Assembly (NCBI RefSeq): GCF_001941975.2 | Contig: NZ_CP146991.1 | Location: 3,035,001-3,099,000 of the forward strand | From: Sporomusa sphaeroides DSM 2875 | Lineage (GTDB): Bacteria > Bacillota > Negativicutes > Sporomusales > Sporomusaceae | DNA: 64,000 bases | Direction of reading: 5' to 3' | Translations under genes and position numbers: made by a program | Part shown: positions 9,150-26,122 of the stretch, in pieces | Layout: each line of letters opens with the position of its first letter | Numbering within the stretch: the first letter of the stretch is position 1 | Notes under the pieces: generated by a model | Databases searched by the model: none | What the model was told of the DNA's origin: nothing | What the model saw: the letters and a program-made list of their open reading frames with translations, nothing else

Positions 9150-10034
9150 CTATGGCAAAATGCCGCAGCAGGTTTCCTGATAAACAACCTCATAGCCGAG
9201 CGACTGTACATAATCCACCGTTTCCCGGGCCGGATAGGCAATGGCGTCAAAACCGGCTTCCACCGCCAGCCGCTCCACCGTCCGGGCATATAGTCCCGGT
9301 GGCCGGGCACACCCCAAAGCCAGCGGGGTCTGCGGCAATAAGCGCCTGGCCGTTTGGAAAACTTCGGCCACCCGTTCAGGTGGCGGCGGCAATACGCCTT
9401 GCATGGGAGTATTGGCCAAAGGATTGAGGAGCACCAGCACCAGACTTGCCGCCCCTTCTGCCGCCACCATGTCAAGGGCGGCATATTCCCCGCGGATATT
9501 ACCGTAATGCAGGCCGATAACAATATGGGGCGAAGCCTTCAGCCCGGCAAGCCGCGCGGCCCGCAGACTGTTCTGATAGTCTGCCGGGGTATGCGGCAGA
9601 TGGTAGACCTCACGAATGGTGTCACTGTCGCCAATCAGGTCAAGCGCCACCCGGGTCACATTGGCGCCGGCCAGCAGCCTGGCTGTTTTTTCTGTCAGCA
9701 AGCCGGGATGAATAACTACAGACAACCCCATGCCGGTCATTGCTTTTAACGCGCCGGCAAAGGGCTCCAGCGGTACACTGCCGTCCCGGCAGGCCCCGCC
9801 GCTAATCAACACTCCCCGGCAGCCGCGCCCCAGCAGCTTTTTGCCCAATTGCACCAGTTGTTCAGGCTCAGGCGCCGGCAACATAGTAGTTAACAGGTGC
9901 CCCCGGCAGTGTTCGCAGCGGCACTGGCACTCAGAACCGGTAATGCTGATATTGGCAAAAGAGTGGGCGTTGTTTTGAAATAACCCATTGTCGTAATGTC
10001 GCGCGCCTGGCGCATAAAAGGCAATACTATTCAT
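9150..10034 (-). CDS. Radical SAM protein, LipS-like (COG1856-type)
   Basis: Radical SAM enzyme of 294 aa with the cluster motif C36-x3-C40-x2-C43 (ECQCRCEHC) and a Cys pair near the C-terminus (CCGILP). Its start overlaps the end of the next radical SAM gene by 8 bp, so the two are coupled. Biotin-synthase-like pairs of this kind next to LplA-type ligases correspond to the two-component lipoyl synthase LipS1/LipS2, in which each protein inserts one sulfur into protein-bound octanoate. Assignment rests on architecture and context; which of LipS1 or LipS2 this is was not settled. An alternative is another biotin-synthase-like sulfur insertion. Confidence 0.72.
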   Translation of the reverse strand: MNSIAFYAPGARHYDNGLFQNNAHSFANISITGSECQCRCEHCRGHLLTTMLPAPEPEQLVQLGKKLLGRGCRGVLISGGACRDGSVPLEPFAGALKAMTGMGLSVVIHPGLLTEKTARLLAGANVTRVALDLIGDSDTIREVYHLPHTPADYQNSLRAARLAGLKASPHIVIGLHYGNIRGEYAALDMVAAEGAASLVLVLLNPLANTPMQGVLPPPPERVAEVFQTARRLLPQTPLALGCARPPGLYARTVERLAVEAGFDAIAYPARETVDYVQSLGYEVVYQETCCGILP

Positions 10035-11100
10035 CCCATATCTGCCCTTTGACAGTAGTCAGGTCGGCCGCTTCCGGCCAAAACGGGTAGTTGCGCAAAA
10101 CAGGGCCCGGGCGCTCGTTTCCATACGGCCGGTTACAGGCAACACAACCGGTCCGGTCAGGACAACCTGAGGTCATGAAGGGCGCGCCTGCCGCCAGATC
10201 GTCCCCTAACAGCTCCACCAGCCGCCGGCCATAACTCACGATTTTTCCCTGTGGATCAAAGGCCAAATCAGCCAGGCTGATTTGTTGTTTATTTAAAAGG
10301 TAGGCCGCCAGTTGAATGCGCCGGTATTGTCCATAGGACGGCGGCTCACAGCTGCCCAGCTTGCTGCCGGGTTCCGGGCAAAAGGAGAACAGATGGGCCT
10401 GCGCCCCGTATTGATTGGCCCTGGCTATGGCCTGAACCATGGCTTGTTCGGTTTCACCCAAGCCGACAATCAGGTGAACACTGACCTGTTCACAGCCAAA
10501 CACGGCAACCGCTTGCTCAATGGACTCCCAGTACTTGGCCCACCGGTGCGGCCCGCCAACTGCCGCCCCCCGCATAGCCGCAAACAGCTCCGGTGTCGCA
10601 GCATCTACCGCTATGCCCACCCGGTCGGCGCCACCGGCTTTAATGGCCTCAAAAAAAGCCGTTGCAGCCGGCAGGATGGTGGGTGATGCCAGAACGCTGA
10701 GCGGCAAATCGGTCCGGGCGCTCAGTTCTGTTACCATACCGATACAATCAGCCGCCGCCCGGGGATGAGTAACCATCGACAGGCAAATCCGGCCGAGTTT
10801 TTTGACTTTACCGGCGGCCGCCGGTGGCGGCTGCCGTAAAATGTCGATAATAGCCGCCAAGCTGTATACCGGCCATTTTACCCTGATGAAGGTGTTTTCC
10901 TCCGGCTCGGCCTGCCGTTCCCTGGCCAGGCCGCAGTAGCTGCAATTGGCGCGGCATCCGTCCTGATAAGTCATTAACAAGTTTAAGCTGCCCGGACATG
11001 CATTGCGGTAAAAACTGCCCGGCTCCAGGCCCAGCGCCATAGCGCCGGCCAGGCTGGTCTGCACAAAATCGGGGCTTTCCCGTCTGCTGGAATTATCCAT
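10027..11100 (-). CDS. Radical SAM protein, LipS-like (COG2516-type)
   Basis: Radical SAM enzyme of 357 aa. The SAM-cluster Cys triad is C49-x3-C53-x2-C56 (CRANCSYC). Extra Cys near the N-terminus (C35) and C-terminus (SGCPDRTGCVACNRPYG) could hold an auxiliary FeS cluster serving as sulfur donor, as in lipoyl and biotin synthases. Pairs with the overlapping gene at 9150 as a probable LipS1/LipS2 lipoyl synthase. A GAGGAGG site precedes the ATG. A canonical LipA is encoded in the same operon, so the window holds two different lipoyl-synthase types. Confidence 0.72.
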   Translation of the reverse strand: MDNSSRRESPDFVQTSLAGAMALGLEPGSFYRNACPGSLNLLMTYQDGCRANCSYCGLARERQAEPEENTFIRVKWPVYSLAAIIDILRQPPPAAAGKVKKLGRICLSMVTHPRAAADCIGMVTELSARTDLPLSVLASPTILPAATAFFEAIKAGGADRVGIAVDAATPELFAAMRGAAVGGPHRWAKYWESIEQAVAVFGCEQVSVHLIVGLGETEQAMVQAIARANQYGAQAHLFSFCPEPGSKLGSCEPPSYGQYRRIQLAAYLLNKQQISLADLAFDPQGKIVSYGRRLVELLGDDLAAGAPFMTSGCPDRTGCVACNRPYGNERPGPVLRNYPFWPEAADLTTVKGQIWDE

Positions 11101-11268: not shown

Positions 11269-12354
11269 TTACTGTTGGGCAAAATACTCCGGAAAAGCAA
11301 TCCAGCTGCGCCGGATCAGGGCGGTGAATTCGGCGGGGTTATCTGTCCAGCCCTGATTGCGGCTTACCAGCCGGTCGCAGGCAACGGCAAACCGGGGACC
11401 ATACTCTGCCTCAAGCGCACGGGCATAGCTTGCGGCAACCGGCTCTTTCCCCCGGCTGTCCAGGTGCCTGAGTACCGCCCCGGCAGCCAAACCGCCGCTG
11501 ACAACGGCATTCATAATGCCGGCGCCGGTAATGGGATGAGTACAGCCGGCGGCATCGCCGGCCACCAGCATCTGTCCGGCAGCCACACAGCGAACCAGGC
11601 CGCCGGCCGGTATCAGGCCGCCGGTTGCGGCCAAACCGGCTTCAGCCCGCACAATTTGCCTGGCCGCCAGCTGGCGGCAAAAATCTTTCAGCAAGCTTTT
11701 GAGGCTGCCTTGGCAGGAATGATGTACCGCCACCCCGACATTGGCTATTTTGCCTTTCGGAAACACCCAGGCATAGCCGCCATAATAGCCGGCATCAAAA
11801 TGAATTTCCGCAGTTGCCAGCGCTTTGGTCAACCGCATTTCATACTGCAGCGCGGCACACAGCTCCTGCGGCGCGTTGCCCAGCGTTTTGCCGACAACCG
11901 ACCGCGGACCATCACAGCCCAAAATATACCGGGCGCTGATTCCGGCGGTGTGAACGCCGTTGGTTACTACAGTTACCACCTTACCGTCAATGCCGGTCAC
12001 CCGGGTTGCGCTCATAACCCTGACACCTGCCGCTTTGGCCCGCTCAACCTGATGTTGCTCCCACAGCCCCCGGTTGAGGATATACCCCGGCGCCCGCAGC
12101 ACACTTGCCGGCCTGCCGCCAATAAAGGTGGTAATGCCCGGAACCGGCTGGGCAATATCGCTTTCCCGGAGAACGGTATGGCGCGCCATAACGACAGGCA
12201 CGAACTCGGCACACTGAACCTGGCTGCCAATGCTTGGCCGCTGCTCCAGCATGGCCACCCTGAGCCCTGCCTGGCCCAGACGGATTGCGGCAGCGCTGCC
12301 CGCCGGTCCGGCCCCGACGACAACAGCGTCATAGTGTTCACCGGCCGGCTTCAC
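11269..12354 (-). CDS. Geranylgeranyl reductase-family FAD oxidoreductase
   Basis: Flavoprotein of 361 aa. The N-terminal dinucleotide motif VVVGAGPAGSAAA begins at residue 10, and the second FAD motif GDAAGCTHPITGAGI is in the C-terminal half, both typical of the geranylgeranyl-reductase/FixC-like family. The reading frame is open up to 12504, but a GTG at 12354, preceded by GGGGGAGG inside the end of the ligase gene, is the likely start. It lies among lipoyl-handling genes, with no isoprenoid lipid genes near. A role as an electron-transfer flavoprotein linked to lipoyl redox chemistry is inference. Confidence 0.82.
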   Translation of the reverse strand: MKPAGEHYDAVVVGAGPAGSAAAIRLGQAGLRVAMLEQRPSIGSQVQCAEFVPVVMARHTVLRESDIAQPVPGITTFIGGRPASVLRAPGYILNRGLWEQHQVERAKAAGVRVMSATRVTGIDGKVVTVVTNGVHTAGISARYILGCDGPRSVVGKTLGNAPQELCAALQYEMRLTKALATAEIHFDAGYYGGYAWVFPKGKIANVGVAVHHSCQGSLKSLLKDFCRQLAARQIVRAEAGLAATGGLIPAGGLVRCVAAGQMLVAGDAAGCTHPITGAGIMNAVVSGGLAAGAVLRHLDSRGKEPVAASYARALEAEYGPRFAVACDRLVSRNQGWTDNPAEFTALIRRSWIAFPEYFAQQ

Positions 12355-13480
12355 AGCACACCTCCCCCGGAGGACTCTGCTGCACCGGCTGCATCGCTTT
12401 GGCCTGCTCAACAGCCAGCAATACGGCTTCAATAAAATGTTCGGGCCCAACACCCGGAATCTCAGCCTGGTGGCTGCGGAAAAAATCCCGGATAATGCCG
12501 GCAATCCGCCTGCTGTCAGCCGGCGTATTTTTCAGGGCTGTTTCCAGATCATTGATGACCCTGGCCGGATAGGCAAAGAAATCGCCGCTGATAAACAAAT
12601 ATTTAATGACCCGGGCGCCTTCATCCAGACGCATTTGCACCCGGATCAGACCGCCCGGCGCCTTATAGCTGGCCGTGCAGTCAACGGTATTGAGCACAGC
12701 GCCGGCTTGGCCGTAAATCCACTCCGGGCTCTCAAACTGCGGCAAATACGCTGCCAACAGTGCCGTTTCCCGGGCAGTAAGCTTGCCGGGAACAAATTCA
12801 TAGGCCAGTGTTTGCCGCAGGCCGGTTAACACTGCCTGCTTGATTACCGCGTCCGGCGGTACATAACCCAGCTGCCCGGTAAGGGAGGTTACCCGCTCCC
12901 GCATGGATGTGACGGCTTTATCACTCAGTTTTTCCAGGGGAAAACGCAATACTCGCAGCATCTCATCAATGTCAAAATCCACCAGCAGGCTGCACTGGAA
13001 GACAAAAGAGCCGGCCAGCTCGGTGCCGCCGGTGCCGGCAATTTTCCGGCCCCTGATTTCAATATCATTCACCGGGCGATAGGCGGCCTCCAGCCCCATT
13101 GTCCGCAGCCCGGCGGCCATGGCCTCACACAGCAGGCGGTACATGCCCTCCACCTGCCGGGGAATACCGGGGGTGTTTTTGCCGGCATACAGCTCCCAGC
13201 CTAATTCCAGCCGCCCCCAGTACAAACTGCCGCCGCCGGTGATTCGCCGGTTGATGTCAATGCCGTTTTCCCGGCAATAAGGAACATTCACTTCTAAAAA
13301 AGTGTTTTGGTGCAGCCCCACCAGCGCGCACGGCTTAAATTGCAGAAACCGCAGGGTATTGGGAATCAGCCCCCGGCTGTGGGCCTCAATAATGACCTTA
13401 TCCAAAGCCATGTGCTCGGCGGCGGTACGCGGCGCCGAATCCAGGACCCGGAAAGTAGTGCCGTTATCCGCAGCAGGCAT
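12338..13480 (-). CDS. lplA: Lipoate-protein ligase A homologue
   Basis: Attaches lipoate (or octanoate) to lipoyl domains through a lipoyl-AMP intermediate. The 380-aa protein has the motif RRITGGGSLYW near residue 78 and the catalytic Lys in GRKIAGTGG (K146), then a C-terminal accessory domain. The start overlaps the end of the GcvH-like gene by 17 bp and the end overlaps the flavoprotein gene, so translation is coupled. The alternating order of GcvH-like and ligase genes suggests that each ligase serves a particular carrier protein. Confidence 0.87.
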   Translation of the reverse strand: MPAADNGTTFRVLDSAPRTAAEHMALDKVIIEAHSRGLIPNTLRFLQFKPCALVGLHQNTFLEVNVPYCRENGIDINRRITGGGSLYWGRLELGWELYAGKNTPGIPRQVEGMYRLLCEAMAAGLRTMGLEAAYRPVNDIEIRGRKIAGTGGTELAGSFVFQCSLLVDFDIDEMLRVLRFPLEKLSDKAVTSMRERVTSLTGQLGYVPPDAVIKQAVLTGLRQTLAYEFVPGKLTARETALLAAYLPQFESPEWIYGQAGAVLNTVDCTASYKAPGGLIRVQMRLDEGARVIKYLFISGDFFAYPARVINDLETALKNTPADSRRIAGIIRDFFRSHQAEIPGVGPEHFIEAVLLAVEQAKAMQPVQQSPPGEVCCEAGR

Positions 13481-13883
13481 TTGCTTTTTCCGCCTCCACC
13501 AGCCAGGACCGCAGCCCGGCAGCCGACATCAGACCGTTAAGCTCTTCCGGCCGGGACAGCTCAATCTCGGCAAACCAGCTATGGTAAGGCAGGCGGCCAA
13601 TAAGCGCCGGACTGGCCAGCACTGCCTGGTTTACATTGGTTATCCTGCCGCTCGCCGGCGCATAGATGCGTCCCACCCATTTGCCCGCTTCCAGCGAGCC
13701 GCAGGTACCGCCGCCTTCTACCGCTGTACCGGCAGGCGGCAGCGACAAGTATAATACATCCCCGGTGATCTCCAGACCATAAGAAGTCAAACCGAATAAA
13801 ATTTTACTGCCTGTTCTTTTAATCCACTGGTAATGCGTGTCATACAATAGTTCCTCCGGAAAATTCCGGCTGGTACCCTCCAT
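13464..13883 (-). CDS. GcvH-like lipoyl carrier protein 2
   Basis: Lipoyl-domain protein of 139 aa resembling glycine cleavage H protein. The attachment Lys is K68 in SLEAGKWVGRIYAPASG. True H proteins usually show a VKA-type motif here; the GKW form is shared with the other H-like protein at 16574. No GcvP or GcvT is encoded nearby, so a role in glycine cleavage is unlikely. It sits next to the CCG-type FeS protein and two LplA homologues, suggesting a mobile dithiol electron carrier. The protein ends in a CC pair. An AAAGGAG ribosome site precedes the ATG. Confidence 0.85.
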   Translation of the reverse strand: MEGTSRNFPEELLYDTHYQWIKRTGSKILFGLTSYGLEITGDVLYLSLPPAGTAVEGGGTCGSLEAGKWVGRIYAPASGRITNVNQAVLASPALIGRLPYHSWFAEIELSRPEELNGLMSAAGLRSWLVEAEKANACCG

Positions 13884-13910
13884 CGTCCCTGCTCCTTTCT
13901 CAAGCTGACA

Positions 13911-15080
13911 TTATTCATCCAGGGCCATTAACAACAATTCGGCAACATTCATGACCTGGAGCGGCAGTTTTTCCGCCCTGGCTGCCTTTTCCAGCATCTG
14001 CTCACACTGCTGGCAGGCTGATACCACAATAGACGCCTGGGTTGCCGCCGCTTCCCGGATACGTTTCCGGGCAATGGCATCGGCCAGGGTCTGGTCGGCC
14101 CCCTGCAAATTCCCCCCGCCGCCACAGCAGGTGGATTCCTCGCCGCAGGTGGCCATTTCTCTGAAATTAAGGCCGGGAATACCGGCAATAATTTGCCGCG
14201 GCGCCGCCGTAATCCCGCTGTTGCGGCCCAAATCACAAGGGTCATGGTAGGTAACCGTTGCCGTTAGCGCCTGGGGCACCAACTTGCCCTGCGCCAGCAG
14301 TTCGGCCAGCAGTTCGGTCGCGTGAACCACTCTAAAACCAAGATCTTCGCCTAACAGCTCCGGATAGATATGGCTCCAGACATGATAACAGGAAGCGCAG
14401 CCGGTAACCAGGGTGGCGGAACCAAGCTGCCGCACCTTGTCGACATTATGCCGGGCATATTCGGCAAGGTCGGCCGCCTGGCCGGCGGCCAGCAGGGGAA
14501 AACCGCAGCACCATTCTTCCGCCCCCAGGGTGGTAAAACTGACTTTTGCCTTTTCCAGCAGTTGCACCATGGCCACCGGTATTTGCGCGGCCCGGGGAAA
14601 AAAGGAGGATACACAGCCCACAAAATAGACAATGTCGGCTCCCGGTTCCTGGTCCAGATACTCAGGCACCTCCTCCAGGTCTTCCGCCCAGTCCAGCCGG
14701 GTGGCATTGGCGAAATTGGAAATATTTTTCTTGCTCTTCAAATTCCCGGCCAGCGCGGTATAGGCTGCCGGCGCTTTGCCCTGGGCCACCAGTTCGGTCC
14801 GCAAATCCTGCCATAAGGCCTGCAAATCAATTCTGGCCGCACAGGCGCGGGTACAGGCGCCGCACATCGTACACTGGGTAATCCGTCTGGCATAGTCCTC
14901 GCTGATTGAGCCGCCGCCATTTCGGGCAAACAGTTCACGGGCCAGCGAAATTTTTGCCCTTGGCGCCGCCGACTCCCAGCCGATTTCCCGGTATACCGGA
15001 CAGTCACTGCGGCAATTGCCGCACCTGCCGCAGATCAGGGATTCCTCGATCAAATCTTTATAAAAACTGTCTGCGCTCAT
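13911..15080 (-). CDS. GlcF/HdrD-like iron-sulfur oxidoreductase with two CCG domains
   Basis: FeS protein of 389 aa. It has two 4Fe-4S ferredoxin motifs (C17, C20, C23, C27 and C70, C73, C76, C80) followed by two complete CCG motifs: C156-x34-C191C192-x35-C228-x2-C231 and C282-x35-C318C319-x36-C356-x2-C359. The full CCG pattern is that of HdrB/HdrD, where it binds non-cubane clusters that cleave or form disulfides; GlcF-type subunits of glycolate/lactate oxidases share the architecture. Its ATG overlaps the stop of the GlcD-like gene (ATGA), so the two form a complex. Placed between two GcvH-like genes, it is the obvious candidate to exchange electrons with lipoyl disulfide. Confidence 0.9.
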   Translation of the reverse strand: MSADSFYKDLIEESLICGRCGNCRSDCPVYREIGWESAAPRAKISLARELFARNGGGSISEDYARRITQCTMCGACTRACAARIDLQALWQDLRTELVAQGKAPAAYTALAGNLKSKKNISNFANATRLDWAEDLEEVPEYLDQEPGADIVYFVGCVSSFFPRAAQIPVAMVQLLEKAKVSFTTLGAEEWCCGFPLLAAGQAADLAEYARHNVDKVRQLGSATLVTGCASCYHVWSHIYPELLGEDLGFRVVHATELLAELLAQGKLVPQALTATVTYHDPCDLGRNSGITAAPRQIIAGIPGLNFREMATCGEESTCCGGGGNLQGADQTLADAIARKRIREAAATQASIVVSACQQCEQMLEKAARAEKLPLQVMNVAELLLMALDE

Positions 15081-16537
15081 GACTTATTCCCCCGCCTTCC
15101 CTGGTATACCATGGTAGTGGCTGCCAGCAAATCCATTCCCAGGCCAAACAGTGCCGGCTGCAGCAGCAGAGGCGGCTCATACCGTTTGCCGGGATTCATA
15201 ATATTGTTGGGATCAAGCAATTGTTTGCGCTTTTTCAGGGCAGCCAGCTCTGCCGGCGGTTGGCACCGCTTTACATACGGCGTGTTCCACAGGCCGATGC
15301 CATAAGGCTGGCCGCCATGCCGGGCACCGATATCATGCAGTTTTTTTACCAGCGCCAGCCCCTGCAGATAACCGATGGTATCGCGTTCGTCGGCATTAAA
15401 CATGGTCATGACCATGGCATGACCTGGTGCTACAATATGGCCGTAGCTTTTTAAACCTAACTGTTTCCGGGTTTCAAACACAGCCACATCGGCCAGATAA
15501 TCGGCCAGCTTTTTAATAGGCAGCCATAACTCGGCTCCCAGGAGGGACGGGCCCTCCCGTTTTAAGACTAAGGAAAAAAACCGGTGCTGCCATTCGTGCC
15601 CGGCCTCTTCTTCCCCCAGATCGCCGCCGTCCGCCTGGTGCAAGCAGCGCTCATAGTCCAGGCGGGCCGCAGCCGTTTGGGCTTTGGTGCCATCGGCGTC
15701 AAAGGCCACCGTGTACGCAAGCGCCGCCCGTTGGTCTGCCATACCCAGCCGCTGCCTGAGTGAGTTACAGCCAGGATCGCTGAAATGCAGGTTAAAGGGC
15801 TTGTTGGCTAACGCTGCCGCCTGCTCGATAAAATCCTGCATTTGCTCAGCATTCTGAAACTCGGCCAGGCCATGCCAATCACTCTCCGGCTGGGACCGCA
15901 CCTTAAGTTCGACCTCAGTCACAATACCCAGGGTTCCCTCAGAGGCGGCAAGCCAGGCAACCGGCGGTTCACTGGTTTGGCTTAATTGCCGCACGCTGCC
16001 GTCAGGCAGGACTACCTGGGCCGCGAGGACCTGTTCCACTACCGGACCGTATGGCAAGCTGCCCAATCCATATCCCATCATAACCAGCCAGCCGCCGACA
16101 GTAGCGGCCTGGGCGCTGCTGGGATAAGAGCAGGCTGCCAGCCCCACCCGGTTTAACGCCCGTTCCAGCCGCCACCAGGTCAGCCCGGCCTCCACCCGGA
16201 CCGTCTTGTTCACTTGATCAATGGCTAATATATTGTCCATACCGTTTATGTCTACAAGTATGCCTTGCCGGGTACATACCGTATTGAAATAGACGGTAGA
16301 CCCTCCGGCCCTGGTAGTGACCGGAAGCTGCTTGGCAGCGGCCAGCGTGACAATGGAGGCGACTTCTTCAGTAGTCTTAGGTCTGACGACAATATCCGGC
16401 AGCGTTTTGGCAACCGGTTTTACCAGAAAATCCGGTACAGGCGCCAGATCCCGCTCATAAAAGCCGCGTTCGAACAAATCGTCGGTAGCACGCTCGCCAA
16501 ACATTTGCTTTACACTTGCCACCGTTTGAGCGTCCAT
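15077..16537 (-). CDS. GlcD-like FAD-linked oxidase
   Basis: FAD-binding (PCMH-type) oxidoreductase of 486 aa. The FAD_binding_4 domain covers about residues 45-220 (VRPKTTEEVASIV, SSAQAATVGGW, ASEGTLGIVTEVEL), and the FAD-oxidase C domain ends near NIMNPGKRY. Family members oxidise D-lactate, glycolate or related 2-hydroxy acids and pass electrons to a GlcF-type FeS partner, which is encoded directly downstream with a 4-bp overlap. Start fixed by GGAGGAGGAGAG before the ATG. In this operon it may instead link lipoyl oxidation to a flavin-dependent acceptor; the direction of electron flow is not known. Confidence 0.9.
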   Translation of the reverse strand: MDAQTVASVKQMFGERATDDLFERGFYERDLAPVPDFLVKPVAKTLPDIVVRPKTTEEVASIVTLAAAKQLPVTTRAGGSTVYFNTVCTRQGILVDINGMDNILAIDQVNKTVRVEAGLTWWRLERALNRVGLAACSYPSSAQAATVGGWLVMMGYGLGSLPYGPVVEQVLAAQVVLPDGSVRQLSQTSEPPVAWLAASEGTLGIVTEVELKVRSQPESDWHGLAEFQNAEQMQDFIEQAAALANKPFNLHFSDPGCNSLRQRLGMADQRAALAYTVAFDADGTKAQTAAARLDYERCLHQADGGDLGEEEAGHEWQHRFFSLVLKREGPSLLGAELWLPIKKLADYLADVAVFETRKQLGLKSYGHIVAPGHAMVMTMFNADERDTIGYLQGLALVKKLHDIGARHGGQPYGIGLWNTPYVKRCQPPAELAALKKRKQLLDPNNIMNPGKRYEPPLLLQPALFGLGMDLLAATTMVYQGRRGNKS

Positions 16538-16573
16538 AACTCTCCTCCTCCCTTACAAGGCTGGCTCGCGCGT

Positions 16574-16993
16574 CTACTCTGGTTTGGCATACTTGGCATG
16601 TTCTTCGGTGAAAAATGCATCAGCTGCATCGCCGTGAATCAGAGTTTGCAGCCCTGCTGCCAGATCATCGGGCTCCATGACACAAATCCAGCCGGCACCA
16701 TAACTGTCGCTGTTCAACAGCTTGGGATTGGCCGGCAGCTCGGTATTGGCTTCCAGCACTGTTCCCGACATCGGCACCTGAATTTTTCCGGCCCATTTGC
16801 CGGACTGAATGGAACTGAGCGTGGCCCCGGCCGCCAGCGTTTTTCCCACCCGGGGAATACGGATAAAGGTAATTTCCCCGGCTAATTTTTGCATAAAGTC
16901 GGTAATGCCGATACGGATTTTATTTTCTTCCACCTTTACCCAGGCATGATCGCTTGTATAGTAAAGTCCTTGCGGAATCTCATACTGCGCCAC
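16574..16993 (-). CDS. GcvH-like lipoyl carrier protein 1
   Basis: GcvH-like protein of 139 aa with hybrid-motif core. The predicted lipoylated residue is K66 in SIQSGKWAGKIQVPMSG. It has the same GKW signature as the second H-like protein in this operon, and the two differ widely elsewhere, which argues for an old duplication with separate jobs. It is located between an LplA homologue and the GlcD/GlcF-like pair. There are no glycine cleavage genes in the window. Confidence 0.87.
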   Translation of the reverse strand: MAQYEIPQGLYYTSDHAWVKVEENKIRIGITDFMQKLAGEITFIRIPRVGKTLAAGATLSSIQSGKWAGKIQVPMSGTVLEANTELPANPKLLNSDSYGAGWICVMEPDDLAAGLQTLIHGDAADAFFTEEHAKYAKPE

Positions 16994-17023
16994 GAAAAAA
17001 ACACTCCTTTTCTCTTTCGTATA

Positions 17024-18112
17024 CTATCTGGCCAGAATCCAGTCGGCCACGACAGCCGGCAAGACTCCGGCCGCGCCGCCGGCAGCCTGGCGGAGCCACT
17101 CTGCCACCACCGGCTTGACCGCCTGCTCGTGCCAGGCACAGCCAGACAGCAAGGACGCCAGCAGCTGCAGCCGGCAGGGCTCCAGGCAGGCAGGCCCATA
17201 ATGGGCAAATTCAATAATTTTATTATTTTGGAGCACCAGGATGGCGTAGCCGGCGCAGGAGCCGTTCCGGTTGCCGCAAGCGTTTTGACTGTCAGGAGTT
17301 GGCTTAAGGCACCGGGGAAACGGCTGCAGACGGACATAAGTTCCCTCATTGATTTTCACCTGGCGCACCCTGCTCCGTTTGCCGGGCAGCTGTAAAAACT
17401 CCGGGCTGGTTAAATACCTGGCCGTCTTAGCGGCACCGGCCTTTAAAGCCGCAGTATATTCCGCCGGCGTCAGTTCCAGCCAGGTGGCAAAATGATGAAC
17501 TAACCGCGCTTCGACCGCCTCATAGTCCGGCAAGCAGCCAAGCTCTTCCTCCATGGTTGTCAGATACCGCTCCAGGGAAAGCCTGAGCTGATCGCGGAAC
17601 CGGCTGCCGGGAACCTTTAGGACATTGGCCATGGCCGTCCGGTCAAAGGCCAGCAGAATATTGCCTGTATATACCGCAAAGCCGTTAATATCGCCGGCAC
17701 CGTTGCCGGATATCTTTTTGCCGTTAACAACAATATCGGCAGGCAGCTTAACGGCAGCCGGAATAGCAAAGTCGGCCAGGGTTTGGATGGCCGGCTGCAA
17801 CAGCTGCCCGAAGAAAGCTTCTCGCCGGCCGGTCAACAGCGGGTTGTCGGCCCGTAATACCAGTTGAAAAAAGATTTGCTCCTCGGCCAGCAGCACCATG
17901 CCGCCGCCGATATCCCGCCTGATGATGGGAATGTTATGTTCCTGGCAATACTCCAGATTGACTTCCTGCTCCAGATCATCATGCAGGCCCAGGCAGACAC
18001 ACCGGCCTGCCGGCCGGCAGATAACCAGCCCTTCCTGCCGGCCTTGGGCCAGCACATGATAGATGGCCTGTGTCTCATCCCACGGGATAGCCCCGAGCCG
18101 GTACAGCTTCAT
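17024..18112 (-). CDS. Lipoate-protein ligase-like protein
   Basis: LplA/LipB/BPL-fold protein of 362 aa. It has IIRRDIGGGMVLL near residue 64 and the conserved Lys motif GKKISGNGAG (K133). The C-terminal part (about 255-360) has Cys residues (CGNRNGSC, CLEPC) reminiscent of a lipoate-ligase C-terminal or small metal-binding domain. Its ATG overlaps the lipB stop by 4 bp. It may move lipoyl or octanoyl groups to the GcvH-like protein encoded next, which is inference from order. Confidence 0.82.
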   Translation of the reverse strand: MKLYRLGAIPWDETQAIYHVLAQGRQEGLVICRPAGRCVCLGLHDDLEQEVNLEYCQEHNIPIIRRDIGGGMVLLAEEQIFFQLVLRADNPLLTGRREAFFGQLLQPAIQTLADFAIPAAVKLPADIVVNGKKISGNGAGDINGFAVYTGNILLAFDRTAMANVLKVPGSRFRDQLRLSLERYLTTMEEELGCLPDYEAVEARLVHHFATWLELTPAEYTAALKAGAAKTARYLTSPEFLQLPGKRSRVRQVKINEGTYVRLQPFPRCLKPTPDSQNACGNRNGSCAGYAILVLQNNKIIEFAHYGPACLEPCRLQLLASLLSGCAWHEQAVKPVVAEWLRQAAGGAAGVLPAVVADWILAR

Positions 18113-18792
18113 GTAACCAGCCTCCGCTCTACCCGGCCTGGGCGGTATGTAACCGCAAACACTGCGGCAAACTGCCGGGCCAGGCAGGCCGCTACTTCCT
18201 CCAGGCCGGCCTCAATGCCCAGGCCGTGCAGTGACACAACCGGCCTGTCGGTAATGCCGCAGGGATTAATCAGGCCAAAATACCGCATATCCGGGTTAAC
18301 GTTGAGCGCAAAACCGTGCATCGACACCCAGCTGCGGGCGCCAATCCCGATGGCGGCAATCTTGCCGGCCGCCGTCCACACTCCTGTCAGTCCCGGCTCC
18401 CGGTAGCCTTTCAGACCATAACAGGCCAGCGTTTTGATAATGACTTCCTCCAACAGCCGGATGTAGCGGTGCAGGTCCTGCCCGTAGCCCTTCAAATCCA
18501 GAATGGGATAGCCCACGATTTGCCCCGGCCCATGGTAGGTGACGTCACCGCCCCGGTCGACTTCAATGACTTTTACCCCCTGTTCCAGCAGCGTTTTTCC
18601 TGACGCCAGGATATTGCGCTCACTGCCGGCCCTGCCGACAGTAATGGTATGATTATGCTCCACCAGAATGAGCGTGTCGCAGGTATCGCCACGGCGGCGG
18701 GCGGCGGCTGTCTCCTGCTGTATTTTCCAGGTATCTTCATACTCCAGCCGCCCCAGGGTTAGCAGACTGCATATTTTTTTTGGCTTCTTCAT
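18109..18792 (-). CDS. lipB: Lipoyl(octanoyl) transferase
   Basis: Transfers octanoate from octanoyl-ACP to lipoyl domains, the first step of lipoyl synthesis. The 227-aa length is normal. The family signature GGDVTYHGPGQIVGYPI, the catalytic Lys in GKIAAIGIG and the catalytic Cys in LINPCGI are all present. The open frame continues to 18885, but the MKKPKK start at 18792 follows AGGGAG and avoids overlap with the DUF6506 gene. Member of the long aco-lipoyl operon with lipA two genes upstream. Confidence 0.92.
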   Translation of the reverse strand: MKKPKKICSLLTLGRLEYEDTWKIQQETAAARRRGDTCDTLILVEHNHTITVGRAGSERNILASGKTLLEQGVKVIEVDRGGDVTYHGPGQIVGYPILDLKGYGQDLHRYIRLLEEVIIKTLACYGLKGYREPGLTGVWTAAGKIAAIGIGARSWVSMHGFALNVNPDMRYFGLINPCGITDRPVVSLHGLGIEAGLEEVAACLARQFAAVFAVTYRPGRVERRLVT

Positions 18793-18805
18793 ATCTCCCT
18801 GACAT

Positions 18806-19117
18806 TTATGCCTGTCGCTGAAAGAGGTCGTCACCGCTCTTGCCTTCCAGTCCGGGATGATTGTCAAACCGCACCACCCCGACAACGGCTTTGCCGTTTA
18901 CTGCCTGCTTAATGGCCGCCACACCTTCACTGCCAAAACCGCCGCATAACTCAATGGCGGCAATGCCCTGCCCGCTGAGCTCCCGGGCGGCCGTCACCGC
19001 GGCCTGATAGTTGCTGACTCCCACCACAGTCAATTCCACCGCCGGTGTTGCCACCACGGCCCGGTGGATTTGGTTGTCGGCGGCCGGTGCCACAAAAATA
19101 AAGGCTGCTTTCAGCAT
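18806..19117 (-). CDS. DUF6506 family protein
   Basis: Small protein of 103 aa matching the DUF6506 pattern (MLKAAFIFVAP at the start, ELTVVGVSNY, ELCGGFG, VGVVRFDNHPG). Function is unknown. The GGAGGGTATATC site precedes the ATG. It lies between lipA and lipB in the operon, so a link to lipoyl metabolism or acetoin catabolism is possible but unproven. Confidence 0.8.
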   Translation of the reverse strand: MLKAAFIFVAPAADNQIHRAVVATPAVELTVVGVSNYQAAVTAARELSGQGIAAIELCGGFGSEGVAAIKQAVNGKAVVGVVRFDNHPGLEGKSGDDLFQRQA

Positions 19118-19148
19118 GATATACCCTCCCTATGTATAGTTTTGCCGG

Positions 19149-20012
19149 TTACCTGTGAGCCAATTGGGCAAAGGTAACCCCTGCATGATAGGAACTGCGG
19201 ACCATGGGTCCGGCATTAACATGAAAGAACCCGATCGCAAACGCCTCTTCTTTAAGCCACTCGAAAACCTGGGGATGCACATACTCGACAATCGGCAGAT
19301 GGGCCGGCGACGGACTGAGGTATTGCCCAAGGGTCAGCATTTGACAACCGGCGCGGTGCAGGTCTTTCATGACGCCAATGACTTCATCCACTGTTTCCCC
19401 CAACCCCAGCATCAAACCCGATTTAGCGATTGTTTTCACACCAGACTCACGCACCCGGCTGATAAGCTTCAGGGACCTGGCATAGACAGCCTGCGGCCTG
19501 ACAGCAGGATACAGTCTGGGTACTGTTTCGGTATTATGATTTACTATATCAGGCTGAGCCGCCAATACTTTGTTGACAGCCTTCTTATTGCCTTTAAAAT
19601 CGGGAATTAGCACCTCAATAGTGGCCTCCGGCAATTCTTCTCTGACGGCGCGGATGGTGGCGGCAAAATGTCCGGCGCCGCCATCAGGCAAATCATCTCT
19701 GGTAACCGAGGTAACCACAACATGCTCCAAACCCAGCTGCCTGGCTGTTGCTGCCACCATATACGGCTCATCGGCGTCAACCTGCTCGGGAACATCATGG
19801 GTTACCGCACAGAAGCGGCAATTGCGGGTGCAGTTTTTCCCCAAAATCATAAAGGTGCACGTTTTATTGCCAAAACACTCGCCAATATTGGGACAATCGG
19901 CGCTCTCACATACGGTATGCAGCCGCCCCTGGCTGAGCAGCTGCTGCATACCGGCGAGCGCCTGTTCGTCAGGGGCAGGAACTGTTAACCATTCCGGTCT
20001 GTCTCGAACCAT
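19149..20012 (-). CDS. lipA: Lipoyl synthase (radical SAM)
   Basis: Inserts two sulfurs into protein-bound octanoyl groups. The auxiliary-cluster motif CESADCPNIGEC, the radical SAM motif CTRNCRFC and the C-terminal RSSYHAG Ser ligand are all present, so the enzyme looks complete. The frame is open to an ATG at 20045 overlapping the preceding stop; the ATG at 20012 has GGGAG ten bases upstream and gives 287 aa, so it is preferred. Lies directly behind the AhpD-like gene. Confidence 0.93.
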   Translation of the reverse strand: MVRDRPEWLTVPAPDEQALAGMQQLLSQGRLHTVCESADCPNIGECFGNKTCTFMILGKNCTRNCRFCAVTHDVPEQVDADEPYMVAATARQLGLEHVVVTSVTRDDLPDGGAGHFAATIRAVREELPEATIEVLIPDFKGNKKAVNKVLAAQPDIVNHNTETVPRLYPAVRPQAVYARSLKLISRVRESGVKTIAKSGLMLGLGETVDEVIGVMKDLHRAGCQMLTLGQYLSPSPAHLPIVEYVHPQVFEWLKEEAFAIGFFHVNAGPMVRSSYHAGVTFAQLAHR

Positions 20013-20031
20013 GACAGCAAAGCTCCCTTTG

Positions 20032-20373
20032 TTATTCAAAAGCATCCAGCGCCTTCAGCACGCTGGTAGCTACATACGCCATAGCCGGCGACCCGCCGAA
20101 AGCTACCGCGACAGCGGCTGCTTCTAGAATTTCTTCCCGGGTTGCGCCCTCTGCCAGCGCCTGTTTGATATGAAGATTAATGCAGTATTCGCACCGTACG
20201 GCCACCGCAATGCCGATACCGATAAGTTCTTTGTGCTTGCGCTCCAGTTCGCCTTCCACATAGGCCGCCTGGTCCATCTGTATAAACGCGGCGGTCAACT
20301 CCGGGCTTTCGCTTTGCAAAGCGCCGATTCCAGTCTGTAACTCACTGACTAATTCCATAGGATCGTTTGCCAT
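20032..20373 (-). CDS. AhpD-like carboxymuconolactone decarboxylase family protein
   Basis: 113-aa AhpD/CMD-family protein with the redox Cys pair CEYC followed by INLHIKQAL, the usual AhpD active-site helix. The start MANDPMEL at 20373 has an AGAGGG site; a longer frame would overlap acoC. In mycobacteria AhpD takes electrons from lipoylated E2. Placement directly after acoC and before lipA suggests a similar dithiol exchange with the E2 lipoyl arm here, which is inference. Confidence 0.85.
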   Translation of the reverse strand: MANDPMELVSELQTGIGALQSESPELTAAFIQMDQAAYVEGELERKHKELIGIGIAVAVRCEYCINLHIKQALAEGATREEILEAAAVAVAFGGSPAMAYVATSVLKALDAFE

Positions 20374-20410
20374 AATCCATTCCCTCTTTCCTTTTTTAAA
20401 TGATAAATTC

Positions 20411-21598
20411 TCAGATAAAAATCTTATGCGGCTGTTCAATCAGCTTGAGCAAGGTGCTGAGGAATGCTGCGGCCGGCGCGCCGTCAATTACCCGGTGGTC
20501 GAAGGCCAGCGACAGGGCCAGCATGGGCCGGATAACGATTTGGCCGCCGATGACAACCGGTTTTTCCACTGTCCGGCCAACCCCCAGAATGGCCGACTCC
20601 GGCTGGTTGATAATCGGGGTAAAATAATCCACCGAGCCGTAACCGCCCAGATTGGTGACCGTAAAGGTGCCACCGTTCATTTCGTCAGGCTCCAGTTTAT
20701 TTTTCTTAGCCCGTTTGGCAAAATCTTTAACTTCCTTACTTACTTCAGCCAGCGCTTTCTGATTGGCCTGTTTGACAACCGGGACCACCAGCCCCTCCGG
20801 CAGGGCAATAGCCACACCGATGTTGATCTCGGACAGCACCTTTATCTCTTCATCACCACACAAAGTGGTGTTAATCCGGGGATGGCGTTCCAGAGCTCTG
20901 GCCACGGCCTTGACCAAAATGTCGGTTACCGAGATTTTTTCCGTATCTTTGACATCGCTGTTGATTGTGGCCCGCAAAGACTGCAAGGCCGACAGATCGA
21001 CACTCACATGCTGGGTAACCTTGGGAGCTACGGCCCAGCTATTGGCCATATTATCGCCAATGGCCCGCCGCATGCCCTCGTAGGCAATGATTTCCAGGGC
21101 AGGCCGCTCATCTGCCGGTGGCTGACTCATAAACTGTTCAACATCTTCCCTGGTGATCCGTCCTTCCGGCCCGGTTCCGGCAATAAGGCTATAATCTATG
21201 CCGTTCTCTTCGGCCAGCTTACGGGCTATGGGGGAAATTTTGACCCGCCCGCCTGCCGCAACTTTAACAGCCGCCGGCTGTATAGCCGCTGCTGCCACCG
21301 GGGCGGCAGTTTTGGCGCCGCTGGCCACGGCTGCTTTGAGCAGGGCACCGATATCCTCGCCGGCCTGGCCGATGACCCCGAGCAGTCCGCCGACCGGCAG
21401 CTTGGCTTTTTTATCAGCGGCAATTTTTAGCAGTATCCCGTCCGCCGGCGCGTCCACTTTGTTGGTAATCTTATCTGTCATAATTTCCAGCAGGGCTTCG
21501 CCTTGCTTAACGGTCTCTCCCTCTTTTTTAAACCACTTGCCGACAATGCCTTCTTTCATGGATAAGCCCAGCTTGGGCATGTTAACCTGAGTTGCCAT
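20411..21598 (-). CDS. acoC: Acetoin dehydrogenase E2 (dihydrolipoyl acetyltransferase)
   Basis: Core of the acetoin dehydrogenase complex, 395 aa. The N-terminal lipoyl domain has the attachment Lys at K43 (EIMTDKITNKV), a linker rich in Ala follows, the E3-binding domain is at about 118-155 (ISPIARKLAEENGID), and the C-terminal catalytic domain carries DHRVIDG. An AAAGGAGGAAGG site precedes the ATG. It keeps a peripheral-subunit binding domain although no E3 gene is present in the window, so an E3 encoded elsewhere cannot be excluded. Confidence 0.92.
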   Translation of the reverse strand: MATQVNMPKLGLSMKEGIVGKWFKKEGETVKQGEALLEIMTDKITNKVDAPADGILLKIAADKKAKLPVGGLLGVIGQAGEDIGALLKAAVASGAKTAAPVAAAAIQPAAVKVAAGGRVKISPIARKLAEENGIDYSLIAGTGPEGRITREDVEQFMSQPPADERPALEIIAYEGMRRAIGDNMANSWAVAPKVTQHVSVDLSALQSLRATINSDVKDTEKISVTDILVKAVARALERHPRINTTLCGDEEIKVLSEINIGVAIALPEGLVVPVVKQANQKALAEVSKEVKDFAKRAKKNKLEPDEMNGGTFTVTNLGGYGSVDYFTPIINQPESAILGVGRTVEKPVVIGGQIVIRPMLALSLAFDHRVIDGAPAAAFLSTLLKLIEQPHKIFI

Positions 21599-21625: not shown

Positions 21626-22627
21626 CTAGTCACAAATTCTCCGGCTAAAGCCTTGGGCCACCGCCTGGTACAAGGTTTCTGCCACCTGAATGACTTTGGG
21701 ACCGTCAAAAGTCAGCTGCAGCTCTGCCGTTTCGCCTGCTCCGACCTCGACTTCCCGTTCCCCGTCCAGCGCAATTACGCAGGGCGTTGTTGCCACAGCT
21801 ATCCTCTGGCCGATAGCAATATACTCATAGCTTTGCACGGCCACCGTTTCAAGCAGGCCGGGGGCAATCGGCGCCAGTACGTGAGTCTTGCCGCCGCCCG
21901 GCGTAATGGCAACACCCCGTTCTTCCTCCGCCGTTACCGGCGCCAGGTGGCCGGCAATGGCTGAGATGCCGATGTTATGCGCCTGGCCCCGGGTAACCAC
22001 GATTTGCCTGATTCGGGCCACATCCCATACCGCCCGGGACCCAATAAACGTATCTGTCAGCACTACGGCATCAATCAGCGCGCTGTCCACCATCCGGCCA
22101 TTCTTATAAACAAGGATCTGTTTGCTGGGATTAATGGCCGGGGGGCCGCTTACCAGTCCTTTGGCGACAGCCCCGGCAGCCAGACCGGCAATCGTACCCT
22201 CGACCATGGTCGGAAACACATTATTGGTGCCGGTGGAAATGGGAAGTATGGGTACATCCCGGCAGCCCTGCGCCACCAGCCGGTTGGTGCCGTCGCCGCC
22301 CATGGTGATAATGACGTTGACACCGTCTGCCGCCATGGCGGCCGCTGCCTGCAGGCTGTCGGTCTGTGTGCCTGTAAGGCAAATATTGGCCGGGACAATC
22401 TCCAGCTGCGGCCGATGCCGCAGGCCGATGCTATTGACGGCCCGCGTAACGATGCCATGGTATTCCGGCATATACACAATCCTGTCAATACCGGCAGCCG
22501 CCAGGCTTAAAATCAGCCGGCGCACAATATTTACCTTTTCCTGGTTGTCGAATACTGTGCCGTAGGCTACCAGCCGCCTGATATCCTTGCCTGATGCCGG
22601 ATTGGCAATAATCCCTACCTGTTCCAT
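21626..22627 (-). CDS. acoX: AcoX/ATP-NAD kinase-like protein
   Basis: 333-aa protein of the AcoX / NAD kinase-like family: IIANPASGKDIRRLVAYG at the N-terminus and the diphosphate-binding GGDGTNR near residue 107. AcoX proteins are common in acetoin operons but their reaction is not settled. A GTG four codons upstream is the alternative start. Between acoB and acoC, with gaps below 40 bp. Confidence 0.87.
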   Translation of the reverse strand: MEQVGIIANPASGKDIRRLVAYGTVFDNQEKVNIVRRLILSLAAAGIDRIVYMPEYHGIVTRAVNSIGLRHRPQLEIVPANICLTGTQTDSLQAAAAMAADGVNVIITMGGDGTNRLVAQGCRDVPILPISTGTNNVFPTMVEGTIAGLAAGAVAKGLVSGPPAINPSKQILVYKNGRMVDSALIDAVVLTDTFIGSRAVWDVARIRQIVVTRGQAHNIGISAIAGHLAPVTAEEERGVAITPGGGKTHVLAPIAPGLLETVAVQSYEYIAIGQRIAVATTPCVIALDGEREVEVGAGETAELQLTFDGPKVIQVAETLYQAVAQGFSRRICD

Positions 22628-22661
22628 ACTTCCATCCACCGCCTCAGAGAATTAATCGGAA

Positions 22662-23630
22662 TTAAAACAGGCTTTTAACTGCCTGAATAATTTTTTCTTC
22701 ACTGGGTATAACAGCCTGTTCCAGTACCGGGCTGAAGGGAATACAAACATCCGGCATAGTCACCCGCTTAATGGGAGCATCCAGATAGTCCATACCTTCT
22801 TCGGCCACAATGGCGGCGATTTCCCCGCCAAAACCGCCGGTTCTCACGGCTTCGTGGACAATGACCAGTTTGTTGGTTTTGCCGACAGACTGCAGGATAG
22901 CCGCTTTATCCAGCGGCACCAGCGTACGCGGATCAAGCACCTCGGCCTGAATGCCTTCTGCTGCCAGCGCTTCGGCAGCCGCCAACGCCTTGTGTACCAT
23001 CCAGGACCAGGCAACTATGGTCACATCCGAGCCTTCCCGCTTGATGTCGGCTTTGCCCAGCGGAATAACATATTCGCCTGCCGGCACCTCGCCGCGGACG
23101 CCCATCAATTGCTTATGCTCAATATATACCACCGGATTGTCGTCACGGATGGCTGCCGCCAGCAACCCCTTGGCATCTGCCGGGGTGGAGGGCATTACCG
23201 TTTTAATACCGGGAATATGGGTAAACCAGGCTTCCATGCTCTGGGAATGCTGGGCGGCGGCAGACATGCCCGCACCGCAGGGGGTACGCAGTACCATAGG
23301 AATTTTGGCTTTGCCGCCGAACATATAGCGCATTTTGGCGGCCTGATTGAATAATTCATCCATGCAGACGCCCATGAAATCAATAAACATAATTTCCGCT
23401 ATAGGTCTTAACCCGGCGGCGGCAGCGCCAACAGCAGCACCGACAATGGCGGTCTCACTAATGGGAGTGTCTATGACCCGGCCGGGGAATTCTTCAAACA
23501 GCTTGCCGGTAACACCGAAGCAGCCGCCAAAACAACCGACATCCTCGCCCCATAAAAACACATTGGGATCACGTTGCATTTCCACCCGCATTCCGTCCCG
23601 GATGGCCTCAGCATATGTCATTTCTTTCAT
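22662..23630 (-). CDS. acoB: Acetoin dehydrogenase E1 beta subunit
   Basis: 322-aa transketolase-like beta subunit (MTYAEAIRDGM, FLWGEDVG, DTPISETAIVGAAVG) that with AcoA cleaves acetoin using thiamine diphosphate. The ATG at 23630 follows AAAGGGTG; a GTG three codons earlier is also possible. Directly downstream of acoA, as in known acetoin operons. Confidence 0.92.
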   Translation of the reverse strand: MKEMTYAEAIRDGMRVEMQRDPNVFLWGEDVGCFGGCFGVTGKLFEEFPGRVIDTPISETAIVGAAVGAAAAGLRPIAEIMFIDFMGVCMDELFNQAAKMRYMFGGKAKIPMVLRTPCGAGMSAAAQHSQSMEAWFTHIPGIKTVMPSTPADAKGLLAAAIRDDNPVVYIEHKQLMGVRGEVPAGEYVIPLGKADIKREGSDVTIVAWSWMVHKALAAAEALAAEGIQAEVLDPRTLVPLDKAAILQSVGKTNKLVIVHEAVRTGGFGGEIAAIVAEEGMDYLDAPIKRVTMPDVCIPFSPVLEQAVIPSEEKIIQAVKSLF

Positions 23631-23657
23631 TTTCTTCACCCTTTCATTGTTTACTTT

Positions 23658-24617: not shown

Positions 24618-24663
24618 AATTCTCCCCCCATTTTCTTCTAGCCTGTACTTGCCTGTTTGACGG

Positions 24664-26097: not shown

Positions 26098-26122
26098 TGA
26101 TACCACTCCTTATAAAATTAAT

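Follow-up and report, generated by a model that had tools for sequence, protein, structure and literature searches.

Acetoin dehydrogenase-type operon of Sporomusa sphaeroides with a putative lipoyl-reoxidising module in place of or beside dihydrolipoyl dehydrogenase

Lipoyl E1-E2 complexes are generally regarded as ending with dihydrolipoyl dehydrogenase (E3), which ties them to NAD; in the acetoin dehydrogenase complex this component is known as AcoL. What reoxidises the lipoyl arm if an acetoin operon is devoid of an E3 gene? The question is raised by a stretch of 64,000 nucleotides from Sporomusa sphaeroides DSM 2875 (NZ_CP146991.1, positions 3,035,001 to 3,099,000; hereinafter the window), where acoA, acoB, acoX and acoC share one gene run with an AhpD-like dithiol protein, two GcvH-like proteins (GcvH1 and GcvH2), a GlcD-like flavoprotein and an iron-sulfur protein with two CCG domains. 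A preliminary description of this DNA proposed that dihydrolipoyl-E2 passes its electrons via the H-like carriers to the GlcD/CCG pair instead of E3. Here, we addressed how far this proposal is borne out by gene content, by conservation within the class and the phylum and by motifs of the proteins. The outcome makes it probable that an acetoin dehydrogenase-type complex is encoded along with dedicated enzymes for lipoate assembly and a dedicated module for lipoyl reoxidation, which stands in place of E3 or beside it.

The run comprises 20 genes on the minus strand, extending from 26.1 to 7.4 kb of the window (the annotated part being about 7.4–26.1 kb), with an SDR gene first, a gene for an LplA-DUF116 fusion last and the others in the order given in Table 1. 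Open reading frames taken from their first starts either overlap or are separated by at most 57 bp, except for gaps of 168 and 112 bp near the end of the run, and these junctions suggest a single transcript. Terminator-like sites on both strands are about as numerous as in shuffled sequences (30 versus 24.6 ± 5.6). AcoA, AcoB, AcoX and a lipoyl E2 are encoded together, as in the acetoin dehydrogenase gene set, and the operon is therefore taken to specify an acetoin dehydrogenase-type complex with acetoin as its likely substrate; AcoC is the sole E2 found in the genome. Genes and coordinates given in the preliminary description proved right, as did its statement that E3 is missing from the operon: no E3 was found within the window, the lone match of a lipoamide dehydrogenase model being a 29-bit FAD-binding piece of the GGR-superfamily flavoprotein.

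In a sample of 300 genomes of the class, the search for GlcD orthologues (limit 1e-60) returned 11 genomes, all at 475 bits or higher, with nothing between 475 bits and the limit. At 12 of 12 class loci (the window plus 11 others, one of them reduced), E1, E2 and AhpD-like genes precede the GlcD-CCG pair and E3 is present at none. In the comparison of neighbourhoods proposed in the preliminary description, GcvH1 and GcvH2 directly flank GlcD-CCG at 11 of 12 loci; lipoate genes are likewise present at 11 of 12. The reduced locus (L115) retains Lin0512, acoA, acoB, acoX, acoC, AhpD, GlcD and CCG, with no lipoate genes adjoining. As the same arrangement is found again at 11 more class loci and, in whole or in part, at 13 other loci of the phylum, its origin by chance is unlikely. 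As a control we used the best 80 relatives of GlcD listed from named genomes (24–38% identity; no close orthologue is among them, and near relatives may be left out): in their stretches, which vary in length, a GcvH1-like gene was detected in one case and E3 in one (25%), AcoC and LipS1/S2 in none and CCG proteins in 59.

Considered from the side of E2, 43 of the 300 class genomes hold 59 E2 loci, among which 38 are linked to E3 only (within 10 kb on the same strand), 12 to GlcD only, none to both and nine to neither. Since the acetoin-type clusters examined in relatives carry one or the other and never both, the GlcD/CCG/lipoyl set seems to replace E3. Both arrangements may occur in one genome: G066 possesses two E1-E2-E3 clusters and a third cluster with GlcD and without E3, and one of its E3-bearing clusters encodes AcoA and AcoB that are 69% and 80% identical to those of the window, along with LipB, LipA and DUF6506. 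The tree of E2 catalytic-domain pieces included 41 of the 66 known E2s (59 from the class and 7 from other genomes of the phylum), namely all 19 linked to GlcD, 20 linked to E3 (19 of the 38 plus G033:C235) and two of the remaining eight. The GlcD label requires at least three changes on this tree, even if only well-supported branches are counted, which implies that the association was gained or lost more than once; three changes may represent one gain and two losses. Five rows form long branches (G107:C143, G087:C4, G054, G007:C38 and G066:C27:99392), and two of the five meet. The AhpD-like gene was seen in 8 of 12 GlcD-linked stretches versus 1 of 21 E3-linked ones, where the match reaches 29% identity and 37 bits and the stretch is 20 kb long. 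Most stretches in this comparison span only 3.7 kb; among the 21 linked to E3, 19 show E3 itself and two repeat E2s of shorter stretches.

Profile search over 398 genomes of the phylum revealed GlcD in 19, including the window's own; 13 others match at 354 bits or more, and six weaker matches (255–273 bits) were left out of the counts. Seven of the 13 loci are linked to E2 and carry AhpD and GcvH genes, and in three genomes (L256, L257 and L258) E2 and AhpD form one fusion protein, with AhpD at the C-terminal end. Five of the 13 show GcvH-GlcD-CCG with no E2 in the fetched stretch, and at L261, where neither GcvH nor E2 was found, the pair adjoins Pyr_redox, AFOR_N, ferredoxin-type and molybdopterin proteins. 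Taken over 25 GlcD loci of the phylum, CCG accompanies GlcD at 25, GcvH at 23, AhpD at 20, E2 at 19 and E3 at none, given that E3 was counted from 150 bits, that L261 and L262 hold weaker Pyr_redox relatives and that some loci are cut by contig ends. Two GcvH genes are present in 17 of the 19 E2-linked loci and one in five of the other six.

The proteins themselves are consistent with lipoyl-linked redox chemistry. Two GcvH-like proteins with a GKW motif had been recognised from the beginning, and the lipoyl lysine is indeed kept in 22 of 22 aligned GcvH1/GcvH2 sequences, in the GKW context versus VKA in four other H-type proteins, so that both are predicted to be lipoylated. The genome search turned up no further GcvH above its cut-off. 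Neither passes the glycine cleavage H equivalog TIGR00527 (105.4 and 77.2 bits against a cut-off of 115.85), and of the two GcvH1 alone passes the broader PRK01202 (123.1 versus 94.3 bits; cut-off 117); the cluster contains no gcv genes, gcvT and gcvP not having been sought in the rest of the genome. The precedent invoked for these proteins, LbpA of sulfur oxidisers, stands as regards the lipoyl lysine and fails as regards the cysteine pair marking most LbpAs. LbpA bears a cysteine close to each of its two termini, some archaeal LbpAs excepted (PMC6067878); GcvH1 and GcvH2 are without the N-terminal one. On cysteines and cut-offs, both the LbpA and the glycine cleavage H assignment were rejected for them. 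In the AhpD-like protein, CxxCxxxH is kept in 12 of 12 sequences.

The CCG protein contains the two complete motifs reported earlier with spacing 34/35 and 35/36 (C156-C191/192-C228 and C282-C318/319-C356), and both CCG domains have the five cysteines typical of the heterodisulfide reductase (Hdr) type. All 18 cluster cysteines are invariant in 25 of 25 CCG proteins. The ten cysteines of the CCG domains are complete in 21 of 21 module proteins versus 16 of 59 CCG neighbours of other GlcDs, 35 of these 59 carrying Ala and Asn at two of the ten positions. Alignments extended to some of the weaker loci: L265–L268 for GlcD, L267–L268 for CCG and L267 for further comparisons, including that of the ten CCG-domain cysteines. 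The nearest solved fold to the CCG model is EtfD (9ojn, TM 0.84 on the query), followed by LutA and HdrB. In EtfD, threonine replaces the Hdr cysteine at one cluster and histidine completes the other, an arrangement described as non-catalytic (PMC13083937). As all ten cysteines are kept, the window protein is Hdr-like where EtfD is not.

GlcD, which the preliminary description named correctly, as it did the flavoprotein of the GGR type and the AhpD-like protein (CMD), is modelled with a fold similar to D-lactate dehydrogenases and LctD. HxGDGNxH and GEHG, which we take to be the metal/hydroxyacid site of the GlcD family, are found in none of ten module GlcDs versus 64 and 69 of the 80 relatives listed, GEHG being replaced by PYGxGLWN; the NCBIfam glcD equivalog gives 139.3 bits against a cut-off of 567.9. 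The conserved cysteines C88, C136 and C257 of GlcD were considered as a redox pair and rejected, being class-specific and variable in the wider family. GlcD of the PYGxGxWN type occurs also fused to a 4Fe-4S dicluster domain (L029, 3765-5615; L265, 5543-10312); at L265 the fused protein stands beside ferredoxin-type and glutamate-synthase-like proteins, and L266 (5336-10556) is listed with the same group.

The sequences themselves show which parts are present and that their order is conserved, that E3 is excluded from the cluster, that AhpD is in some cases fused to E2, that the cysteine set is complete and that the hydroxyacid motifs have been lost; exclusion and linkage together suggest that the module oxidises dihydrolipoyl groups, by a path which may be envisaged as follows. 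Cleavage of acetoin by AcoAB would charge the lipoyl arm of AcoC, and this arm would be left in the dihydrolipoyl state once the acetyl group is transferred. Two electrons could then move by thiol-disulfide exchange to AhpD (through its CxxC) and/or to the lipoyl groups of GcvH1 and GcvH2, further to the pair of Hdr-type non-cubane clusters in the CCG protein, to its two cubane clusters and to FAD of GlcD, from which quinone, electron-transferring flavoprotein (ETF), ferredoxin or NAD might accept them. This is put forward as a plausible scheme as regards the sequence of carriers, the direction in which electrons run and their acceptor. The oxidative direction is favoured because acetoin cleavage yields dihydrolipoyl-E2 and because no E3 was found in G143, a genome of the same genus (all 62 candidates were scored, the best reaching 135 bits versus a cut-off of 409). 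This genome is listed as 100% complete with 10% contamination, in two contigs; E1, E2 and AhpD of its operon are intact, and no canonical GcvH was found in it. In a wider formulation, slightly less certain yet still judged more likely right than wrong, the lipoyl E1-E2 route would be independent of E3, with AhpD as a shuttle and GcvH-like carriers feeding an Hdr-type CCG/GlcD enzyme that delivers electrons to an acceptor other than NAD via a flavin without the hydroxyacid site; E3 and the module would have been swapped at least three times in the phylum, and GcvH-GlcD-CCG would serve also as a general redox enzyme of lipoyl proteins without E2. Regarding the acceptor, L261 (7864-16170) and L262 (7904-16297) offer a lead: here GlcD-CCG has as neighbours a pyridine-nucleotide flavoprotein, a protein with the N-terminal domain of AFOR, proteins of the ferredoxin type and a molybdopterin oxidoreductase (Pfam assignments for L261 only).

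A number of observations weigh against replacement of E3 by the module. The search for lpdA homologues over the whole genome, proposed in the preliminary description, returned one E3 at C1:2527663-2529039 (528 bits, cut-off 409), 0.5 Mb from the operon. This protein of 564 aa bears an N-terminal lipoyl domain (PF00364, 44 bits), and next to its gene are those of LplA and an MFS transporter, while two transposase genes of the IS110 type lie alongside (L014, 3579-10831); the transporter is 47% identical to the one inside the acoA-acoB-MFS-acoC cluster L230, and in several class genomes E3s with frames long enough for a lipoyl domain adjoin E2. AcoC retains its E3-binding domain, as do 10 of 10 E2s scanned (8 GlcD-linked and 2 E3-linked), so that the supposed loss of this domain from GlcD-linked E2s was rejected. 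Since the genome holds one E3 and one E2 with the E3-binding domain, E3 is in principle available to AcoC, and the preliminary proposal is supported in part: in the host genome itself the module may act beside E3 or instead of it. Beyond this genome, 17 of 18 genomes with an E2-linked module hold E3 somewhere, which makes its sharing in trans possible; in several of the 17, a gcvT-gcvH-gcvP-lipS1-lipS2-lplA run terminates in an E3 gene (for L193 alone, Pfam confirms the T and P proteins). The idea that module carriers generally lack E3 was rejected, as only G143 among E2-linked cases and G340 do: in G340, where the module has no E2 alongside, no E3 passed the cut-off, and in G449 a contig-edge piece of E3 was the only one found. 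Six module loci (L259–L264) show no E2 in the fetched stretch, and the E2-linked L115 has no GcvH alongside, the L117 cluster of the same genome having both GcvH genes and lipoate genes; from these two facts the module is not bound to acetoin. The exclusion (Fisher p = 2.6e-7) is not corrected for kinship, with 7 of 12 GlcD loci coming from one genus. Nine E2 loci carry neither partner: G033:C235, so counted because its adjoining E3 is broken into two frames; three loci at contig ends (G139:C76, G189:C8 and G228:C34); two with short E2 frames (G107:C143 and G007:C30); and G007:C38, G033:C19 and G033:C210, for which no comparable reason applies apart from the 73% completeness of G033 and the truncation of C210 within acoX. 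No electron acceptor was identified, EtfAB, HdrA, Rnf and quinone partners not having been searched for. The weakest points are E3 with a lipoyl domain in the genome, the E3-binding domain kept by AcoC and the acceptor; the strongest support comes from the exclusion, the repeated change of partners, the E2-AhpD fusion and G143.

The same facts can be assembled into a picture where AcoABC is reoxidised conventionally by the distant E3, and GlcD-CCG-GcvH is a separate lipoyl-linked redox system residing in the operon because lipoate-assembly genes are shared. Presence of E3 in the host and in nearly all genomes with the E2-linked module, the preserved binding domain, the LplA and aco-cluster-related MFS neighbours of the lipoyl-domain E3 and the module loci without E2 nearby are all in keeping with it. 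However, it predicts neither the 38/12/0 exclusion nor the repeated changes of partner nor the E2-AhpD fusion, L115 has acoABXC-AhpD-GlcD-CCG without any adjoining lipoate gene to share, and in G143 there is no E3 found to do the work; we consider this explanation rather unlikely. Another assignment concerns the carriers only: GcvH1 and GcvH2 may relay lipoyl or octanoyl groups to E2, like GcvH with LipM/LipL in B. subtilis, while GlcD-CCG takes electrons directly from E2 or AhpD, which is compatible with replacement of E3. Three LplA-type genes and LipB in the cluster, the absence of an adjoining GcvH from L115 with its GlcD-CCG and E2, and the role of GcvH as an obligate lipoyl relay in Firmicutes (PMC10332631) speak for this possibility; the company of GcvH and GlcD-CCG at five of six loci where no E2 was seen and the direct flanking of the pair by both GcvH genes at 11 of 12 class loci speak against it, leaving it doubtful though not negligible.

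Finally, GlcD-CCG could be a 2-hydroxyacid (lactate or glycolate) dehydrogenase, with electrons running in reverse, to lipoyl-GcvH and AhpD, e.g., for peroxide reduction. The fold of GlcD is nearest to D-lactate dehydrogenases and LctD, AhpD-family proteins feed peroxidases in C. glutamicum (PMC10460364), and 16 of the 80 relatives listed lack at least one of HxGDGNxH and GEHG, so that absence of a motif alone is not decisive. Nevertheless, both motifs are missing in 10 of 10 module GlcDs, the score of 139 falls far below the glcD cut-off of 568, and linkage tracks E2 and lipoate genes, not a hydroxyacid pathway; this explanation is very improbable.

Comparison with known systems delineates what is shared. 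With acetoin dehydrogenase AcoABC the operon has in common E1 alpha, E1 beta, AcoX and a lipoyl E2 with the usual domains, differing in the AhpD, GcvH, GlcD and CCG module and in the missing E3. The sHdr-LbpA system likewise unites, in one cluster, lipoyl proteins resembling GcvH, one or more proteins of the CCG type and lipoate-assembly genes of the kind seen here (LipS1/S2, sLpl(AB) and LipT; PMC6067878, PMC10332631). The window differs by a single Fer4-CCG-CCG protein and GlcD replacing sHdr subunits, and by carriers without the LbpA cysteine pair that are tied to E1/E2, not to sulfur oxidation genes; the Hdr-like subunit set including HdrA is absent from the cluster, HdrA not having been sought in the rest of the genome. 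For the sulfur oxidisers, where lipoyl proteins lie beside Hdr-like proteins, it was proposed that E3 reoxidises them (PMC6067878). HdrD/HdrB and TfrB share two complete five-cysteine CCG sites and the Fer4 dicluster, TfrB being the best NCBIfam match; nevertheless, the window protein scores 177 against a cut-off of 385, and the cluster has GlcD instead of an HdrA, HdrE or TfrA gene. Compared with mycobacterial EtfD (9ojn), the fold is common, but the ten cysteines are kept and no membrane domain is found in Pfam. GlcD, LctD and D-lactate dehydrogenases share fold, FAD domain and pairing with CCG, the window GlcD being without HxGDGNxH and GEHG. In C. glutamicum, PMC10460364 (which cites a mycobacterial case) describes an AhpD-like protein reduced via lipoyl E2 with Lpd upstream and feeding peroxidases; there, too, a CxxC protein exchanges electrons with lipoyl E2, but they come from NADH via Lpd, whereas in the window they would flow outward from E2 without Lpd. 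In the open-access literature, surveyed by titles and opening lines with supplements excluded, we found no description of a GlcD/CCG/GcvH module with acetoin dehydrogenase.

Absent from the gene list of the preliminary description are those members of the run that serve lipoate assembly (LipA/LipB; LipS1/LipS2/LplAB). The set consists of LipA, LipB, LplA-like, Lpl(AB), LipS2, LipS1 and LplA-DUF116 proteins and, judged by its content, makes the run a self-contained lipoyl system. Linked LipS1, LipS2 and Lpl(AB) are found as in sHdr-LbpA systems, LipS1 and LipS2 being best matches below curated cut-offs. The GGR protein is more likely a LipT-type oxidoreductase of lipoate assembly than a member of the redox path. 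In several Sporomusa species canonical lipoate genes are directly linked to lipS1/S2, as one sentence of PMC10332631 states; acetoin is unmentioned in the main text of that source.

Table 1. Genes of the 20-gene run in the order of transcription (coordinates in the window)
Feature	Coordinates	Strand	Basis
SDR oxidoreductase, possible acetoin/2,3-butanediol dehydrogenase	25285..26106	-	adh_short 185 bits; TIGR02415 acetoin reductase 193 bits, below cut-off 304
Lin0512-family protein	24664..25227	-	PF09585 130 bits; recurs in L109-L115, L252, L254-L257
acoA, E1 alpha	23658..24812 (open reading frame from first start; real start probably downstream)	-	E1_dh 307 bits
acoB, E1 beta	22662..23639	-	PRK09212 394 bits, above cut-off 321
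acoX, NAD-kinase-like	21626..22639	-	PF01513 45 bits
acoC, E2: lipoyl, E3-binding (PSBD) and acyltransferase domains	20411..21598	-	domain search
AhpD-like dithiol protein, invariant RCEYCxxxH	20032..20439	-	PF02627 78 bits; alignment n=12
lipA, lipoyl synthase	19149..20045	-	TIGR00510 364 bits, above cut-off 310
DUF6506 protein	18806..19117	-	PF20116 123.5 bits
lipB, octanoyltransferase	18109..18885 (open reading frame from first start)	-	TIGR00214 167 bits, above cut-off 84
LplA-like protein (LplA1)	17024..18112	-	PF21948 104 bits
GcvH1, putative lipoyl carrier, SIQSGKWAGK	16574..16993	-	PF01597 117 bits; lysine invariant
GlcD-like FAD flavoprotein, PYGxGLWN replacing GEHG	15077..16537	-	PF01565 and PF02913; motif test; model pLDDT 89
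Fer4 dicluster-CCG-CCG iron-sulfur protein, 18/18 cluster cysteines	13911..15080	-	PF02754 in two stretches, Fer4_8; model pLDDT 91
GcvH2, putative lipoyl carrier, SLEAGKWVGR	13464..13883	-	PF01597 95 bits; lysine invariant
Lpl(AB) lipoate-protein ligase	12338..13480	-	PF21948 141 bits; C-terminal LplB domain 54 bits, below cut-off 65
GGR-superfamily flavoprotein, probably LipT	11269..12504	-	TIGR02032 181 bits, above cut-off 159; adjoins LipS1/S2
LipS2-like lipoyl synthase	10027..11100	-	NF053743 218.5 bits, best family, below cut-off 270
LipS1-like lipoyl synthase	9150..10034	-	NF053742 213.8 bits, best family, below cut-off 230
LplA-like domain fused to DUF116, last gene	7445..9037	-	PF21948 93 bits and PF01976 40 bits

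Across the phylum, Lin0512 and DUF6506 proteins are found repeatedly in acetoin-type operons, and the E3-bearing operon L189 has DUF6506 too. Full-length relatives of LplA-DUF116 recur near LipS1/S2 at L114, L116 and L256-L260 (the L109 relative is cut by the stretch end; Pfam check for L256), and DUF116 may on this account belong to lipoate assembly. Runs of gcvT-gcvH-gcvP1-gcvP2-lipS1-lipS2-lplA-lpd in L192, L193, L194, L195, L196, L197, L200, L201 and L202 provide glycine cleavage with a dedicated LipS1/S2-like set and a dedicated E3 (the Pfam confirmation of T and P proteins for L193 alone applies here as well). In G135, a genome of the same genus, L183 (7347-11788) carries a GcvH-like gene followed by LipS1-, LipS2- and LplA-like genes and E3, with no T/P or E2 genes adjoining; neither GlcD of the PYGxGLWN-operon type nor E2 was found in this genome. 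The trio of E3 with lipoyl domain, LplA and MFS recurs in G115 (L187). The acoA-acoB-MFS-acoC cluster L230 (7345-12094) lies at a contig end, and the identity of its MFS to that beside the host E3 suggests an acetoin-type transporter.

If the proposed reoxidation of lipoyl groups by the module is true, oxidation of acetoin and possibly other oxidations of the 2-oxoacid type in anaerobes could feed a carrier other than NAD, changing the energy accounting; the potential of dihydrolipoamide is near -0.29 V according to PMC6067878. It would also give a function to GcvH-like proteins and LipS1/S2 pathways outside sulfur oxidisers, and make testable the role of Hdr-type CCG proteins beside lipoyl carriers in bacteria whose clusters bear no signs of sulfur oxidation.

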